A stretch of 64,000 nucleotides of DNA from Halarchaeum rubridurum (lineage in GTDB: Archaea > Halobacteriota > Halobacteria > Halobacteriales > Halobacteriaceae), in the NCBI RefSeq assembly GCF_014647115.1, contig NZ_BMOO01000002.1, positions 310,001 through 374,000 of the forward strand. The letters are read 5' to 3'. This document shows positions 6,749-20,201 of the stretch, piece after piece (the first letter of the stretch is position 1; every line of letters starts with the position of its first letter). The notes under the pieces were generated by a model that was not told where the DNA came from, made no database searches, and saw nothing but the letters and a program-made list of their open reading frames with translations. A program made the translations under genes and the position numbers.

Positions 6749-7077
6749 GCCGACAGCGAACACGCTATCCGACTGTATCGGATATATCGCCCTCGTAGGT
6801 CGATTAGTGATACTCTCTGAAGACGATACGGGGGTTTCTTTACACGAATACCGTCGTAAATAGTCGCCGCGGGGAGCGTGGATTCGGGTTCGAAACACCC
6901 TAGCCACCTGGTACGAACTCGAATATGTCCGATACTCGCGGATGGGGTTCGCCTGGCGGTGCCGCGTCGGTGCCCGTTCCGGTCGGTGTCGGCGGGGGTG
7001 GCGCGGCGTCGCGGGCGTCCGCTCGGGCGGGGGCGAGAAGAGCAAGGAATAAACGGGTCGCGGCCCACTGGGGAGTA
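6749..7077. promoter_or_regulatory. Intergenic region with palindromes and the mptA promoter
   Basis: 329 bases. It contains TATCCGACTGTATCGGATA (6766-6784), a degenerate copy TGTCCGATACTCGCGGATG (6926-6944), and an A+T-rich stretch around 6780-6860. AATAAAC at about 7048-7054 sits close to 27 bases before the mptA ATG and is the likely TATA box. A frame extends mptA upstream to 6925, but its Gly/Ala/Arg-rich product is not like the family. Confidence 0.55.
6766..6784. promoter_or_regulatory. Palindromic operator-like site TATCCGA-CTGTA-TCGGATA
   Basis: The best copy of the recurring motif: a perfect 7+7 base inverted repeat with a 5-base spacer, in the gap between the dehydrogenase gene and mptA. 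Confidence 0.55.
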
Positions 7078-8013
7078 ATGCCAGACGAGCTTCCGGACGT
7101 GCAGGCGTCAACACCGGACGTCTCGGTGGGGTTGAGCCACGTGGGTGTGACCGGCGTCGAGAAGCTGGTGACGCTCGAACGGCCGGAGAAACGCCCGGTC
7201 GTCCTGATGGCGGAGTTCGAAGTGTACGTCGATCTCCCGCGGGAGCGCAAGGGAATCGACATGAGCCGAAACATGGAGGTCATCGACGAGACGCTCCAGT
7301 CGGCCATCGACGAACCGACCTATCAGGTCGAGGACGTCTGCGGCGAGGTCGCCGACCGACTCCTCGAAAAGCACGACTACACCTCGCAGGCGGTGGTGTC
7401 GATGGAGGCCGCGTACATGACGCGCGAGGAGACGCCCGAGTCGGAGCGCGCCACGCAGGCGACGCTCGACATCGTCGCGTCCGCGACGGCGGCGGAGGGC
7501 GAGGAGACGCGCGAGGAGGTCGGCGTCCGCGTCACCGGGATGACCGTCTGTCCCTGCAGTCAGGAGATGATGTCCGCGCGCGCCGCCGAGCGGCTCGCGG
7601 AGCTCGGCGTCGCGGAGGACGACGTGAAGGCGTTCCTCCGCGACGTCCCGCAGGCCGGCCACTCCCAGCGCGGGCACGCGACGCTGACGGTCGAGACAGC
7701 CGGGACGCCGGACGTCGACCTGCGCGACCTCATCGAGATCGCGCGGGACTCGATGAGCGCGCGAATCTACAACCTCGCGAAGCGCCCGGACGAGGACCAC
7801 ATGACGTACGAGGCGCACGCGAACGCCCGGTTCGTAGAGGACTGCGTGCGCTCGATGGCCGAGCAGGTCGTCGATGAGTACCCCGACCTCCCGGACGGGA
7901 CCGTCGTCACGATGAAGCAGTCGAACGACGAGTCCATCCACCAGCACAACGCCCACGCCGAACGCGTCGCCTCCCTCGCGCAGCTTCGCGAGGAGGTCGA
8001 CGGCGGCGAGTAG
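7078..8013 (+). CDS. mptA: GTP cyclohydrolase MptA (FolE2 family)
   Basis: MptA is the archaeal Fe(II)-dependent GTP cyclohydrolase that starts pterin synthesis by making 7,8-dihydroneopterin 2',3'-cyclic phosphate. The 311-residue protein shows [45 protein letters not shown], the metal-ligand region [12 protein letters not shown] near residues 158-165, [13 protein letters not shown] with further His residues, and [26 protein letters not shown] 7078 is supported by a TATA box 27 bases upstream. The convergent pab genes make the other half of folate, so this neighbourhood is a folate synthesis site. Confidence 0.93.
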
Positions 8014-8942: not shown

Positions 8943-9581
8943 TCACTGCTGGCGGTTCCGTCCCCGGTCTCGGTCGCGTGTCGCGCCCGCGAGGAAGTTC
9001 GCCACGAGCCGGCGGCCGAGCGAGAGGTCCGCGGGGTCGTCGGACCGGCCGGTGAGGACGCTCTCCGGGTGGAACTGGACGCCGACGTGGGGTTTCTCGC
9101 GGTCCCGAACCGCCATGACGACGTCGTCGTCCTCGCCGTCGGCGGTCCACGCGGTCTCGACGAGGCGCGCCGGGAGCGTGTCGGCGTCGACGGCGAGCGA
9201 GTGGTATCTGCCGACGGTGACGGCGTCGGGGAGGCCGTCGAAGATACCGTCGCCGTCGTGACGAATCGCCGAGGGCTTGCCGTGGACGACCGCGTCGGCG
9301 CGAACGACGTCGGCACCGCGGGCGGCGCAGAGCGCCTGGTGGCCCAGACAGACCCCCAGAATCGGGTAGTCGGTGTCGAAGAGCGACACGGAGACGCCGG
9401 CTTCGGCGGGCGTCCCGGGACCCGGGGAGACGACGATGGCCTCGGGGTCGAGCGCGCGGACGTCGTTGAGGTCGACGGCGTCGTTCCGGCGGACGACGAC
9501 GTCCGCGTCGTGCTCGCTCGCCACGTAGTCGACGAGGTTGTACGCGAACGAATCGTAGTTGTCGACGACGAGGACGGTCAT
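8943..9581 (-). CDS. pabA: Aminodeoxychorismate/anthranilate synthase glutamine amidotransferase subunit PabA
   Basis: A class I glutamine amidotransferase of 212 residues. It has the start [20 protein letters not shown], the oxyanion segment [13 protein letters not shown], the nucleophile Cys in [41 protein letters not shown] and the catalytic His-Glu in [13 protein letters not shown]. It supplies ammonia to the PabB subunit. Its start overlaps the pabB stop by four bases (ATGA), so the two are translationally coupled. TrpG is the alternative, but pabC downstream and mptA nearby favour the PABA role. Confidence 0.85.
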
Positions 9582-11083
9582 TTCGAGACCTCCATGCCGC
9601 CGGCGTCCGCGGCGAGCGCCTGATCGAGCGCGTCGACGAGCGCCTGTGCCTTGGCGAGCGTCTCGTCGTACTCGGCGTCGGGGTCCGAGTCGTGGACGAC
9701 GCCGGCACCGACGCGGAGGGCGTACTCGGCGTTCGTGCGGACGAGCGTCCGGATGACGATGTTGAACGTGGCGTCGCCGTCGAAGCCGATTGCGGCCATG
9801 CTGCCCGTGTACGGCCCGCGGCGGGTCGTCTCGACGGACTCGATGAGTTCCATCGTCTTCGGTTTCGGCGCGCCCGTAATCGTGCCGCCGGGGAAGACGG
9901 CCTCGACGGCCTCGCCGAGCGACGTGTCGGGTGCCATCCGGCCGGTGACGAGCGAGACGAGGTGCATGACGCGCGAGTAGCGGTCCACGCGGCGGTACTC
10001 CTCGACGGCGACGGAGCCCGGTTCGGAGACCTTGGCGAGGTCGTTGCGTTCGAGGTCGACGAGCATCGCGTGCTCGGCGCGCTCCTTCTCGTCGCCGAGG
10101 AGGTCGGCCTCGTACTCGGCGTCCTCGGCGTCGGTCTCGCCGCGCGGCCGCGTTCCCGCGATGGGTTCGGTGACGAGGCGGTCGCCCTGGCGTTCGAGGA
10201 GGAGTTCGGGGCTCGCGGAGACGAGGTCGCAGGACGGGAACTCGACGAGGCCCGCGTAGGGCGCGGGGTTGACGTCGCGCAGCGCCGCGTACGCCTCAAC
10301 GGGGTGGACGGCGGCCGGCGCGCGGAGGCGCTGGCTGACGTTCGTCTGGAACGTATCGCCCGCCCGAATCGCCTCCTTGATGCGAGCGACGCGCCCGGCG
10401 AACGCCTCGCGGCCCGCGTCGCTCTCGAAGGCGGCGGTCGTCGCGTCCGACGCGGGTGCCGGCCCGACGCTCGGGTCGCCCTCACGGGCGCGTTCGGCAA
10501 GCGCCGTCGCCCGCGCGAGCGCGGCATCGTACGCCTCGTCGGGCGAGTCGTGCGCGTCGAGTCGAAGCGTGGCGACCACGCGGAGGTCGTCGCCGGGCTC
10601 GAACGGCTCCGCCCACGCCGCGAGACAGTCGTAGGTGGCGAGTTCGAGGCGCGGCAGGCGGCGGTCGTCCGTCGTCGTCTCGGGAATCGCCTCGATCTCC
10701 CGGACCGCGTCGTAGGAGAGGTAGCCGAAGGAACCGCCGGGGTACGGGACGTCGCAGCCGGCGCGGACGAGCGTCTCGTCGGCGACGAGGGCGTCGATGG
10801 CCTCGAAGACGCCGTTTCCGTCGGGGCCGACGGTCGTCGCGTCCGCGGGTGCGACGCCGAAGTACCCCCAGCCGACGGCGTCCCCGCCCGTCTCGTAGAA
10901 GAACGACGAGTCCCGACGCCCATCGCCCGCCACGCGTCCGCCGCGCGCCCGTCGATAGGCGTCGAAGGGGTCCTCGACGGGGACGCGGACCTCAACGGGG
11001 ATGCGCGCGCCGTCGGGTGCGTCGCGCGCCGCCGCGCGGAACGTGCCCCAGTCGGTGACGGTACGAACGTACTGCTTGCTCAC
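9578..11083 (-). CDS. pabB: Aminodeoxychorismate synthase component I PabB (anthranilate synthase family)
   Basis: A 501-residue chorismate-binding enzyme. The C-terminal chorismate domain shows [64 protein letters not shown], the [18 protein letters not shown] signature and [21 protein letters not shown]. The N-terminal region (about residues 1-200) matches the regulatory/substrate domain of TrpE/PabB. It begins with GTG at 11083. A perfect palindrome, GATACT-CGAC-AGTATC, lies upstream next to the likely TATA box CCTATAACC (minus strand). TrpE activity cannot be excluded by sequence alone. Confidence 0.8.
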
Positions 11084-13977: not shown

Positions 13978-14023
13978 AACCATCATCGGAGTATCTGACG
14001 TAGTAGTCGTCGAGACGCGCCGA

Positions 14024-14041
14024 TACTGCGGACACGGTGGT
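14024..14041 (+). repeat. ORB-like repeat
   Basis: TACTGCGGACACGGTGGT, plus orientation; outermost left copy, about 45 bases after the M48 peptidase stop. Confidence 0.7.
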
Positions 14042-14169
14042 GTTGGATGCGGGGGACGGAGACCGGGCGAGCGGCCGCCGACCCGTCGATCCCACCCCCA
14101 TCGGCAACTGTCGGCCCCGATAGCGCGACCGACGACGGTGACTGGAGGGGAACCGGACAGCCGAACCGA

Positions 14170-14189
14170 CACCACCGTGTCCGCAGTAA
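14170..14189 (-). repeat. ORB-like repeat
   Basis: Reads TTACTGCGGACACGGTGGTG on the minus strand; inverted relative to 14024-14041. Confidence 0.7.
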
Positions 14190-14360
14190 TACGGCTCGGA
14201 ACCGCCTTCGAGCCGGTGTTCAGTGTGGATACGTCTCGGGCCGAGGAGTCAAAACGAAGGGAGGGATTCGCGTCGGTCGGGCGCACGGAACCGGAACCGG
14301 GCGGTACGTCGGAGAGGAGGTGCCCGGAGTCGCCCGGGGAGGAACGCCGACGGCGAACAC

Positions 14361-14377
14361 CCCACCGTGTCCGCTGT
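14361..14377 (-). repeat. ORB-like repeat, diverged
   Basis: Minus-strand copy with AACAGCGGACACGGTGG in place of the TTACTGCGGACACGGTGG core. Confidence 0.55.
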
Positions 14378-14412
14378 TCTTCGGCCGTCCGCAATCCACG
14401 ACGGCGGGACGG

Positions 14413-14439
14413 ACCCTCCCCCCACTTTGTCCGCAGTAA
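14413..14439 (-). repeat. ORB element with G-run, left border of the unwinding element
   Basis: A 27-base element that is an exact reverse complement of 14683-14709. On the minus strand it begins TTACTGCGGACAAAGTGG and continues into a G-run. Together the two copies bracket the A+T-rich stretch. Confidence 0.75.
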
Positions 14440-14509
14440 TCGCGGTAGAGGGACCGGTGGGGGGAGCAGGAGAGAACAACTGTTGCCGGAACCGAAAGAC
14501 GGGTAGATG

Positions 14510-14645
14510 GATTCACCTGTTACAGAATAGGATTAAAGTACAAATAGGATAGAAGTTAAACGAGACAACTATACTACTATTCTGTCTGTCCCTACTACGG
14601 ATAGTGTTTTTTCTTTATTGATTTAAATCCATCGCTATTCTAGAG
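14510..14645. other. A+T-rich DNA unwinding element
   Basis: The lowest-G+C non-coding stretch I saw in the window (28% over 14521-14580), including TTTTTTCTTTATTGATTTAA near 14609-14628, lying between two exactly inverted ORB elements. Confidence 0.7.
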
Positions 14646-14682
14646 GCCTCTTCCTCACCCCCCCTCCCCCTCTCCTCGCCCG

Positions 14683-14709
14683 TTACTGCGGACAAAGTGG
14701 GGGGAGGGT
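14683..14709 (+). repeat. ORB element with G-run, right border of the unwinding element
   Basis: Plus-strand copy, TTACTGCGGACAAAGTGG followed by a G-run, exactly matching the inverted copy at 14413-14439 over 27 bases. Confidence 0.75.
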
Positions 14710-14760
14710 GTCGGCCACAATCTTCTTATCTGATTGTTCGACCTACGTAAATCCTCCAGA

Positions 14761-14820
14761 ACTCCGGACGCTCCGGACACTCCGGACACAGCGGACACTC
14801 CGGACGCGGTGGTTTTATTG
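14761..14820 (+). promoter_or_regulatory. Short CTCCGGACAC direct repeats and orc1/cdc6 promoter
   Basis: Repeated CTCCGGAC units at about 14762-14801, a truncated ORB core (CGGACGCGGTGG, 14801-14812) and then TTTTATTG at 14813-14820, a TATA box about 28 bases before the orc1/cdc6 ATG. The ORB half-site touching the TATA box suggests that the initiator represses its own promoter. Confidence 0.5.
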
Positions 14821-14844
14821 TGGTCTCCGACCAGGGGTGTTCGT

Positions 14845-16170
14845 ATGGGGCTCTTCGAGCGGGACACCGACATCTATCGGGACCGCGACGCGCTTCGGGA
14901 GGATTACCAGCCGGCCGAGCTGGTCGGGCGGGACGAGGAACTCTCCACCTACACGTCCGCCCTCCAACCGGTCATCAACGGCGAGCAACCGAACAACGTC
15001 TTCCTCTACGGGAAGACGGGCGTCGGGAAGACCGCGGCGACGCGCTACCTCCTCGATCACCTTCGGGAGGACGCCGAGGAGTACGACGACATCGCCCTCG
15101 ACATCATCTTCCTCAACTGCGACGGCCTCTCCTCCTCCTACCAGGTCGCCACCCACCTCGTGAACGAACTCCGCGCCGAGCACAACCAGATTTCGACGAC
15201 CGGCTACCCGCTCGCCACGGTGTACGAGATGCTCTGGGAGGACCTCGACTCGCACGGCGGGACGGTCCTCATCGTCCTCGACGAGATCGACAACATCGGC
15301 GACGACTCCATCCTCTACCAGCTTCCGCGCGCCCGCGCGAACGGCAAACTCGAAGACACCCAGGTCGGTCTCATCGGTATCTCGAACGACTTCTCCTTCC
15401 GCGACGACCTCTCCCCGAAGGTCAAATCCTCGCTCTGCGAGAACGAGATTCACTTCCCGGCCTACGACGCGACGGACCTGAAGGCCATCCTCAAGCAACG
15501 CGCCGACGTCGCGTTCCACGACGGCGTCCTCGAGGACGGCGTCATCCCGCTCTGTGCGGCCTACGGCGCGAAAGACGCCGGTGACGCCCGCCAGTCCATC
15601 GACCTCCTGATGAAGGCGGGCGACGTCGCGCGCGACGACGAGGCGACCACCATCACCGAGGACCACGTGGACCGCGGTCGGACCGCGCTCGAACGCGGCC
15701 GCATCGAGGAGGGCATCCGTGGGCTCACCGAGCACGGCCACCTCGTCCTCTACGCGCTCGTGACGAACGACTTGGAGGGCGAGACACCGATTCGCTCGCG
15801 CGACGTCCGCCCGCGCTACACACGCTTCGCCGAACTCGCCGAACGCGACCCGCTCGTTCCGCGCCGGATGCGCGACCACCTGAGCGAACTCGCCATGCTC
15901 GGTATCATCTCCGTCACGGAGCGCAACGAGGGCCGTCGCGGCGGGACGTACCGCGAGTACGAACTCGACATGCCCGTCGAGCAGGTGTTGAGCGCGCTCT
16001 CGGAGACGGTGAAACTCGTCGGCGTCCACGAGTCCGTCGTCGAACTCGCCGAGGACGCCATGCCCGACCTGACGACGTCGGTCGCCAGCACCGAAGGCGG
16101 CGACGAGACCGACGGGGAGGAACGGCCCGAGGCGGACCGCTCCGACGCGTCGCTGGCGTCCTTCGAGTAG
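14845..16170 (+). CDS. orc1/cdc6: Orc1/Cdc6 replication initiator
   Basis: A 441-residue AAA+ initiator that binds ORB elements and loads the MCM helicase. The N terminus MGLFERDTDIYRDRDALRED and the following ELVGRDEEL box are typical. Walker A is GKTGVGKT at residues 56-63; Walker B is LIVLDEIDNIG near 145; sensor 1 is GLIGISNDFSF. DAGDARQSIDLLMKAGDVA closes the AAA+ lid, and a winged-helix domain fills the C terminus (LVLYALVTNDL to YREYELDMPVEQVL). ATG 14845 is chosen because the conserved N terminus begins there and TTTTATTG lies about 28 bases upstream. Confidence 0.95.
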   Translation: MGLFERDTDIYRDRDALREDYQPAELVGRDEELSTYTSALQPVINGEQPNNVFLYGKTGVGKTAATRYLLDHLREDAEEYDDIALDIIFLNCDGLSSSYQVATHLVNELRAEHNQISTTGYPLATVYEMLWEDLDSHGGTVLIVLDEIDNIGDDSILYQLPRARANGKLEDTQVGLIGISNDFSFRDDLSPKVKSSLCENEIHFPAYDATDLKAILKQRADVAFHDGVLEDGVIPLCAAYGAKDAGDARQSIDLLMKAGDVARDDEATTITEDHVDRGRTALERGRIEEGIRGLTEHGHLVLYALVTNDLEGETPIRSRDVRPRYTRFAELAERDPLVPRRMRDHLSELAMLGIISVTERNEGRRGGTYREYELDMPVEQVLSALSETVKLVGVHESVVELAEDAMPDLTTSVASTEGGDETDGEERPEADRSDASLASFE

Positions 16171-16173
16171 CGC

Positions 16174-16260
16174 CTCTCGCGTCCCCCGGTCGGCTCTCGC
16201 GTCCTCCGGTCGGCTCTCGCGTCCTCCGGTCGGCTCTCGCGTCCTCCGGTCGGCTCTCCG
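16174..16260. repeat. Four tandem copies of a 20-base repeat
   Basis: CTCTCGCGTCCTCCGGTCGG repeated head to tail at 16174, 16194, 16214 and 16234, with one C/T difference in the first copy and a partial fifth copy (CTCTCCG). It follows the orc1/cdc6 stop and precedes two more ORBs. There are no spacers, so it is not a CRISPR array. Confidence 0.85.
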
Positions 16261-16271
16261 CCACCCGCGGA

Positions 16272-16290
16272 TTACTGCGGACACGGTGGG
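16272..16290 (+). repeat. ORB-like repeat downstream of orc1/cdc6
   Basis: TTACTGCGGACACGGTGGG, plus orientation; the core is identical to the copies upstream of the gene. Confidence 0.7.
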
Positions 16291-16341
16291 GTCGACGCCG
16301 GGGTTCGTCCGCCCGACGACCGAGCCGACCCGCGGCGTCAC

Positions 16342-16360
16342 TACTGCGGACGCGGTGGTG
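16342..16360 (+). repeat. ORB-like repeat downstream of orc1/cdc6
   Basis: TACTGCGGACGCGGTGGTG, plus orientation with one change in the core. With 16272-16290 it shows that the initiator gene is flanked by binding elements on both sides. The 16171-16462 gap holds nothing else I can identify except the tandem repeats. Confidence 0.65.
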
Positions 16361-16462
16361 TCGGCTTTATCCCGGAACGGCGGACACGCCGGGGTCGCGC
16401 GTCCGCTCCCTCTGTGGGGACGAACCGAAAGCCCCCAGTAGCACCTCGTCCTCCGTCCGCCC

Positions 16463-18732: not shown

Positions 18733-19560
18733 CTACGTCTCGACGACGCGCTCGATTCGCGCGTCGGCCTCGGGGTGCTCCGCATCGTCGAGTCCGGCGA
18801 CGGCGTCCAGGAAGGTCACGCGATAGCTCGCCGGCCCCTCGTAGTCGCCGAACGACCCGTTCGCGGCTGCTTCACCCGCGACGCCGAAGGCGAGCGTGCC
18901 GGCGAGCGCCGCGGTTTCCGCGTCGTCGAGCGCCGCGGCGAACGTCGCCAGCGTCACGCCGAGCATACAGCCGGTGCCGACGACCCGCCCGAGCATCGCG
19001 TCGCCCGCCGTAATCTCGTAGGCCGCCTCGGTCGTCGCGACGACGTCCGTCTCGCCGGACGCGACCACCACGGCGTCGGTGTCGCGCGCGAGCGCCATCG
19101 CCGTCTCCGCGACGTCCGCGTACTCGCCGACGGATTCGACGCCCCGGACCTCTGCGTCGTCGCCCGCGAGCGCCGTAATCTCGCCGTAGTTCCCCTTCAC
19201 GACCGTCGGGTCGAGGTCGGTGACGAGCGCCTCGGCGACGCGGTCGCGCGTGGGGGTCGCGCCGACGCCGACGGGGTCGACGACGAGCGGGACGTCGTGC
19301 TCGTTCGCCGCGCGGCCCGCCGTCAACATCACCTCCTCGCCGGCCTCGCTGACCGTCCCCATGTTGAGGAGACAGCCCTGCGCGCCCGCGACCATGTCGT
19401 CGACCTCGCGGGCGTCGTCGCTCATTACGGGGAGGCCGCCCCAGTGGAGGGTGACGTTGGCGACGTCGTTGACGGTGACGGCGTTCGTCACGCAGTTGAT
19501 GAGCGGCTGTTCGTCCCGAATCGTGCCGAGCGCCTCGGCGATGGTGAAGTCGATAGTCAT
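18733..19560 (-). CDS. thiM: Hydroxyethylthiazole kinase ThiM
   Basis: ThiM phosphorylates 4-methyl-5-(2-hydroxyethyl)thiazole in thiamine salvage. The 275-residue ribokinase-like protein shows PLINCVTNAVTVNDVANVTLHWGG, PVMSDDAREV, LLNMGTVSE, PLVVDPVGVGATPTRDR, VVKGNYGEITALAG, VVASGETDVV and the catalytic GTGCMLG stretch. Its ATG overlaps the thiE stop by four bases, so the two are coupled. Confidence 0.92.
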   Translation of the reverse strand: MTIDFTIAEALGTIRDEQPLINCVTNAVTVNDVANVTLHWGGLPVMSDDAREVDDMVAGAQGCLLNMGTVSEAGEEVMLTAGRAANEHDVPLVVDPVGVGATPTRDRVAEALVTDLDPTVVKGNYGEITALAGDDAEVRGVESVGEYADVAETAMALARDTDAVVVASGETDVVATTEAAYEITAGDAMLGRVVGTGCMLGVTLATFAAALDDAETAALAGTLAFGVAGEAAANGSFGDYEGPASYRVTFLDAVAGLDDAEHPEADARIERVVET

Positions 19561-20201
19561 GGTCGTTCTCCGGCAGCTCGTACCGCGTCGGCGAGTTCGC
19601 GCGTCGCCGCCTCGGGGTCGTCCGCGGCGGTGATCGCGGAGACGACGGCGACGCCGTCCGCGCCCGCCTCGATGACGTCGCCGGCGTTCGCGGCCGTGAT
19701 TCCCCCGATTCCGACGATGGGGACGTCGACGGCGTCCGCGATGGCGGCGACGGTGTCGGGGCCGATTTCCGCGTGCTCCTCGCGGACGTCCTTCGAGTCG
19801 GTCGCGTACACCGCGCCGACGCCGAGGTAGTCCGCGCCGGCCTGTACGGCCCGTCTGGCGGCTGCCACGGAGGAGACCGACCGGCCGACGATTGCCTCGT
19901 CGCCGAGCACGTCGCGCGCGGCGGCGACCGGGAGGTCCTCGTCGCCGAGGTGGACGCCGTCGGCGTCGACGGCCGCCGCGATGTCCACGCGGTCGTTCAC
20001 GAGGTAGGTGACGTCCGCCTCGCGCGTCTGCTCGCGGAGCGCGCGCCCGAGGTGGTAGCGCTCGCGCGCCGTCGCGCCCTTCTCGCGCAACTGGACGACG
20101 TCGACGCCGCCGGTGATGGCGGCCGCGACGACGTCCTCCGTCGTCCGCCCGCGCGAGCGACTTCCCTGTGTGACGAGGTAGGTGCCGAACTCGCTATTCA
20201 C
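19557..20201 (-). CDS. thiE: Thiamine-phosphate synthase ThiE
   Basis: ThiE joins HMP pyrophosphate and thiazole phosphate. The 214-residue TIM barrel shows VVQLREKGATARERY, YLVNDRVDIAAAVDADGVHLGDEDLP, IVGRSVSSV, ADYLGVGAVYATDSKDV, PIVGIGGITAANAGDVIEAGADGVAVVSAI. The start is GTG at 20199-20201, which lies inside the thi palindrome GTATCACCCGTGAATA; this fits a leaderless transcript with an operator across its start. Confidence 0.92.
   Translation of the reverse strand: MNSEFGTYLVTQGSRSRGRTTEDVVAAAITGGVDVVQLREKGATARERYHLGRALREQTREADVTYLVNDRVDIAAAVDADGVHLGDEDLPVAAARDVLGDEAIVGRSVSSVAAARRAVQAGADYLGVGAVYATDSKDVREEHAEIGPDTVAAIADAVDVPIVGIGGITAANAGDVIEAGADGVAVVSAITAADDPEAATRELADAVRAAGERP

Follow-up and report, generated by a model that had tools for sequence, protein, structure and literature searches.

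How initiation is controlled at each of several archaeal origins is largely an open question. The intergenic region 13978-14844 of the 64,000-nucleotide stretch of Halarchaeum rubridurum DNA analysed here (the window) raises it for a particular case: is this region an origin, of what kind, and how might its initiator be regulated? The region lies directly upstream of an orc gene (14845-16170), and a reading made from the sequence alone had claimed it as an Orc1/Cdc6-linked origin. This claim was supported by the match of the gene product to TIGR02928 (441 bits), by an ORB architecture conserved at ~60 loci, by a skew maximum in the A+T-rich candidate unwinding element (DUE), and by probable orthology to proven origins. 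The elements, their conservation, the gene and the skew switch were determined from the sequences studied here, whereas origin activity is what has been published for probable orthologues. On this basis the locus is very probably the replicator of a ~0.55-Mb Halarchaeum megaplasmid or chromid, at which Orc would act through an inner ORB pair, titration and autorepression included.

The features of a haloarchaeal orc/cdc6-adjacent origin were found together: an adjacent orc gene, inverted ORBs with a G-string, and an A+T-rich element between the ORBs. By every sequence criterion available the origin thus appears to be real, and of a known kind, like origins that work in Haloarcula and Haloferax. 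The best solved relative of the 14845-16170 product is 2qby_A, Cdc6-1 of S. solfataricus. Its nearest named protein, from Halarchaeum nitratireducens, is 98% identical, and the nearest Orc paralogue in the same genome is 54% identical. Coordinates of all features are listed in Table 1.

Table 1. Sequence features of the orc-linked locus, in window coordinates
Feature	Position	Strand	Remarks
Outer ORB, ATACTGCGGACACGGTGG then TGTT, without G-tail	14023..14040	+	aligned counterpart in Halarchaeum nitratireducens
Outer ORB, TTACTGCGGACACGGTGGTGT	14172..14189	-	kept in Halarchaeum nitratireducens and Halarchaeum acidiphilum
Third upstream ORB, GAACAGCGGACACGGTGGGGTGTTC	14362..14379	-	kept in each of the five Halarchaeum species
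Inner left ORB with G-tail	14413..14439	-	same 27 bases as 14683-14709, inverted; 19-20 columns invariant across five Halarchaeum species
G-rich inverted repeat, left half, GGTGGGGGGAG	14456..14466	+	just inside inner left ORB
Candidate DNA unwinding element (DUE)	14503..14650	.	32% G+C in first 130 bp; holds cumulative GC-skew maximum
Degenerate ORB-like element, CTACTACGGATAGTGTTT	14593..14610	+	inside DUE, fixed ~90 bp from inner right ORB
G-rich inverted repeat, right half (C-rich on + strand)	14658..14675	-	just inside inner right ORB
Inner right ORB with G-tail	14683..14709	+	exact inverted copy of left partner; conserved
Five tandem 9-bp half-ORB repeats, ACTCCGGAC	14761..14805	+	orc promoter; 9 bp x 5.0 by Tandem Repeats Finder
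TATA-like box joined to an ORB right half, CGGACGCGGTGGTTTTATT	14801..14819	+	TTTTATT 26-32 bases before start codon
Orc1/Cdc6 initiator gene, 441 aa	14845..16170	+	TIGR02928 441 bits; Cdc6_lid; Cdc6_C winged-helix
Downstream ORB, TTACTGCGGACACGGTGG	16272..16289	+	counterparts 3' of orc in most relatives
Downstream ORB, CTACTGCGGACGCGGTGG	16341..16358	+	motif match
Degenerate downstream ORB, AACGGCGGACACGCCGG	16376..16392	+	motif match

The centre of the locus is formed by the inner ORBs. An exact 27-base inverted pair had been described from the sequence, and this was confirmed: the reverse complement of 14413-14439 and the segment 14683-14709 agree at 27/27 positions, both reading TTACTGCGGACAAAGTGGGGGGAGGGT. 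With up to three mismatches allowed, the 18-mer ORB core matched five times in the 64-kb window versus not once in 100 dinucleotide shuffles, and the exact core occurs twice in the whole 2.81-Mb genome, in the inner pair only. The G-tail of the inner left ORB is directed away from the DUE. In nearly all relatives (~60 loci) a G-tailed ORB precedes the start codon by about 110-140 bp, the ORB positions recorded being -111 to -138, and has an inverted partner across an A+T-rich gap of usually 150-350 bp. When five Halarchaeum species were compared, the gene-proximal ORBs, the DUE, the promoter element and the G-rich inverted repeat appeared as conserved islands, and the rest of the intergenic region had diverged. 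Within the cdc6K-type family many genera clearly have this G-rich repeat inside the inner pair and several lack it; at oriC1 of Haloarcula hispanica a G-rich repeat at the analogous inner position is an enhancer.

The 130 bp with the lowest G+C content in the 64-kb window lie between the inner ORBs. An unwinding element of 28% G+C had been proposed; the A+T-rich minimum was found between the pair, but the exact figure was not reproduced, the content being 32% over 130 bp and 30% in the best 80 bp, depending on the stretch chosen. Inside the DUE the spacing of the degenerate ORB-like element is preserved across five Halarchaeum species and in a number of Haloferax loci, and the element was not detected in most other genera examined; it was rejected as a general feature of the family because its support is limited to Halarchaeum and some Haloferax. 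Cumulative GC skew, which the sequence-only reading had suggested as a check, was calculated for the whole contig (C2) that contains the window. The maximum fell within the A+T-rich element, at contig base 324,564 (window 14,564), and the range exceeded that of all 500 shuffles of 2-kb blocks. A skew switch centred on the locus with a range beyond the shuffles argues for long-term use of the origin. In Halarchaeum nitratireducens the cumulative skew peaks 93 bp inside the orthologous orc gene; in another Halarchaeum relative (G002) the contig maximum is 37 kb off, and near the origin there is merely a local peak. On pHH400 the local maximum (±100 kb around oriP) was located 3.1 kb away from cdc6K, and its polarity agrees with that on contig C2.

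Three more ORBs in both orientations, claimed to lie on the left, were found at 14023 (+), 14172 (-) and 14362 (-). According to the same reading, inner and outer ORBs differ at the same two positions and form two classes. The first statement is true for two of the three outer ORBs; the one at 14362 differs also in its first bases, and the outer ORBs of Halarchaeum nitratireducens and Halarchaeum acidiphilum carry other bases at the two core positions. For a comparison of the classes each genus was represented by a single locus, which gave 23 loci. The mean number of Gs in the 11 bases following GTGG was 7.0 for inner versus 3.9 for outer and 4.2 for downstream ORBs (Mann-Whitney p ~1e-18, ignoring shared ancestry). 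Core position +12 was A in 34 of 46 inner ORBs (74%) versus 39 of 152 others (17-32%; Fisher p ~6e-9, likewise ignoring shared ancestry). Since the AA/CG core difference is broken by the outer ORBs of other Halarchaeum species, and in view of the G-tail counts, the constant distinction between the two classes is the inner G-tail, and the core difference is a weaker trend. Isolated good ORBs are also present outside the window, far from the origin, at C2:401030 (-) and C2:440353/440376 (-). These are possible titration sites; a function as promoter sites was rejected because they are located in 3' intergenic gaps. A 20-bp tandem repeat, CTCTCGCGTCCTCCGGTCGG (window 16174-16258, 4.2 copies, 98% matches), follows the orc stop codon and precedes the downstream ORBs.

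The presence of downstream ORBs had first suggested identity with oriC2-cdc6E, but this idea was dropped when a plasmid search gave cdc6K of pHH400 as the probable orthologue. The initiator is 74% identical to cdc6K, the sole cdc6 gene of this Haloarcula hispanica plasmid, a value higher than for any paralogue in its own genome but below the 80% cut used by Wu et al. 2012, and 80% identical to a gene on pHME505, the 505-kb plasmid of Haloferax mediterranei. From the 98% identity between orc3 and cdc6M (PMC4595724) we infer that the pHME505 gene is cdc6M, which is active. Published primers for deletion of Haloferax volcanii orc3 match the cdc6K-type Haloferax loci, which belong to the same family as 14845-16170: R1 matches at the gene start, and R2, with 18/18 in five Haloferax species, ~0.8 kb downstream of it. 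The gene orc3 is associated with ori-pHV4, which has been mapped as an origin by marker-frequency analysis (PMC6063281). The pHH400 origin oriP-cdc6K is ARS-active, undeletable and essential, and is the single MFA-mapped origin of the megaplasmid (PMC3528665, PMC3936714). Probable orthology to cdc6K and the pHME505 gene, together with the orc3 primer matches, thus places the locus in a set with experimentally proven origins. A maximum-likelihood tree had long branches and deep forks without resolution, and family placement was therefore based on identity, ORB type and synteny; for the oriCb family, comparison by rRNA linkage was limited by draft contigs, which break at rRNA. An Orc1/Cdc6 49% identical to the initiator, without matching ORBs nearby, is encoded on PUNW01000021.1, binned as a Spirochaetaceae MAG and probably a mis-binned archaeal contig.

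The 14845-16170 locus has the ORB core and the layout of the oriP-cdc6K megaplasmid origin family. It shares with oriP-cdc6K the G-tailed inner pair, outer ORBs ending in GTGGTGT, a 9-bp promoter array with GTGGTTTTAT, and three ORBs downstream. In contrast, the spacing of the inner ORBs is 310 bp in oriP-cdc6K and about 243 in Halarchaeum rubridurum, oriP-cdc6K has six outer ORBs, oriented both ways, where Halarchaeum rubridurum has three, and the Halarchaeum replicon is larger than pHH400. The origins ori-pHV4/orc3 of Haloferax volcanii and pHM500 (pHME505) resemble it in Orc family, promoter element and a right inner ORB at -112, whereas the Haloferax left inner ORB has a weaker G-tail. With oriC1 (cdc6A/orc1/orc7) it has in common inverted ORBs with the halophile G-string around an A+T-rich region, but oriC1 is chromosomal, has its own ORB sequence and belongs to another initiator family by published definitions. 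ORBs 3' of the initiator gene are also known from oriC2-cdc6E (oriC2D) of Haloarcula hispanica, with eleven in 722 bp as against two good ones and one degenerate here; that cluster is a negative regulator acting by titration, a strategy which its authors suggest to be common in haloarchaea. The oriP-cdc6K type was described in 2014 as apparently restricted to Haloarcula (PMC4441112). Close relatives of this type, with the same origin plan, occur at ~60 loci in about 23 haloarchaeal genera, among them genetically tractable hosts (Haloferax volcanii with ori-pHV4/orc3 and Haloarcula hispanica with oriP-cdc6K).

Neither the megaplasmid type of the origin nor the ORB half-sites in the orc promoter had been part of the sequence-only reading. 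The half-ORB array leads directly into CGGACGCGGTGGTTTTATT of the promoter. In relatives the half-ORB units are kept in register, usually 2-5 of them (from one or two to five), together with the junction GTGGTTTTAT. A strict ORB-half/TATA pattern was found in 26 of the 293 genomes of the order, in single copy in each, and in the Halarchaeum rubridurum genome it occurs once even at ≤3 mismatches. A limited search of the open-access literature yielded no description of a half-ORB array fused to the orc TATA box; ORB repeats running into the initiator's own promoter are a less-described detail of an otherwise known origin type. The arrangement suggests, as the simplest reading, that Orc bound to the array would block TBP/TFB and thereby repress its own gene.

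The array could instead be additional origin architecture, providing loading sites or a platform for helicase loading, and simply stand beside the TATA box. It adjoins the inner right ORB, with which it shares the half-site, and the number of its units varies between species. However, the array keeps a constant spacing to the TATA box (GTGGTTTTAT) while its distance to the inner ORB varies, and a locus (L160) from a sister family whose ORB differs still has its own ORB-like sequence fused before the same TATA. A purely architectural role is on balance less likely than not. The opposite view, that the repeats are only a cluster of transcription factor sites of the orc gene and have no part in replication, could appeal to the ORBs flanking the promoter and to archaeal Orc1 homologues that can regulate transcription, such as Sulfolobus Orc1-2 (PMC9738581). 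Paired, inverted, G-tailed ORBs around an A+T-rich minimum that carries the skew maximum, and proven origins at probably orthologous loci, make it extremely improbable. The locus could also be a structurally intact origin that lies dormant and comes into use only in the absence of the replicon's other origins; this has precedents in Haloferax mediterranei, where the ORB-bearing oriC4-cdc6H and oriP1-cdc6L have been proven dormant (PMC4595724), and contig C2 carries a second orc paralogue with an inverted repeat upstream (C2:520919). Dormancy is nevertheless improbable here, because the skew switch is centred on the locus with a range exceeding that of 500 block shuffles, and pHH400 and pHV4 carry active members of the family.

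In the preferred reading, an active replicator that also regulates its initiator, the 14845-16170 Orc1/Cdc6 would bind the inner inverted ORB pair with the G-tails pointing outward and melt the A+T-rich stretch between them, this order of melting being the presumed one; it would then load MCM, and replication would proceed bidirectionally. The outer and downstream ORBs, which have no G-tail, may hold extra Orc and moderate initiation by titration. Orc on the half-ORB array that reaches its own TATA box would repress its own transcription, and the initiator level would in this way be coupled to origin firing. Tentatively, and at somewhat less than even chances, the ORBs of this widely distributed initiator may fall into three graded classes: a G-tailed inner pair that fires, tail-less outer and downstream ORBs that retain Orc, and a TATA-fused 9-bp array that stops synthesis. 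If so, archaea would have, within a single cassette of ~2.4 kb, an equivalent of DnaA autoregulation combined with datA titration. Because the replicator is compact and self-contained, its candidate autoregulatory site is conserved and genetically tractable hosts share it, initiator autoregulation and the affinity of the ORB classes become directly testable.

As to the replicon, the window is part of the 551,991-bp contig NZ_BMOO01000002.1 (C2). The 602,938-bp plasmid pCBA1220-01 of another Halarchaeum encodes an Orc that is 93% identical and likewise has msrA, M48 protease and NmrA-like genes as neighbours, and four sampled stretches of contig C2 all match this plasmid, which is the best match for three of the four. 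The orthologue, its neighbours and the contig matches suggest a megaplasmid or chromid, an assignment drawn from relatives because contig C2 is not closed. The Orc orthologue of Halospeciosus flavus is chromosomal. Metabolic genes near the origin (window 6925-8013, 8943-11083 and 18733-20201) include, by sequence resemblance, an MptA-like GTP cyclohydrolase and, by plasmid matches, PabB/PabA and ThiM/ThiE; housekeeping-type genes at this place fit a chromid and not a dispensable plasmid. At ~460-469 kb, contig C2 shares 82.5% identity with a type I-D CRISPR-Cas operon carried by a plasmid of Halococcus dombrowskii.
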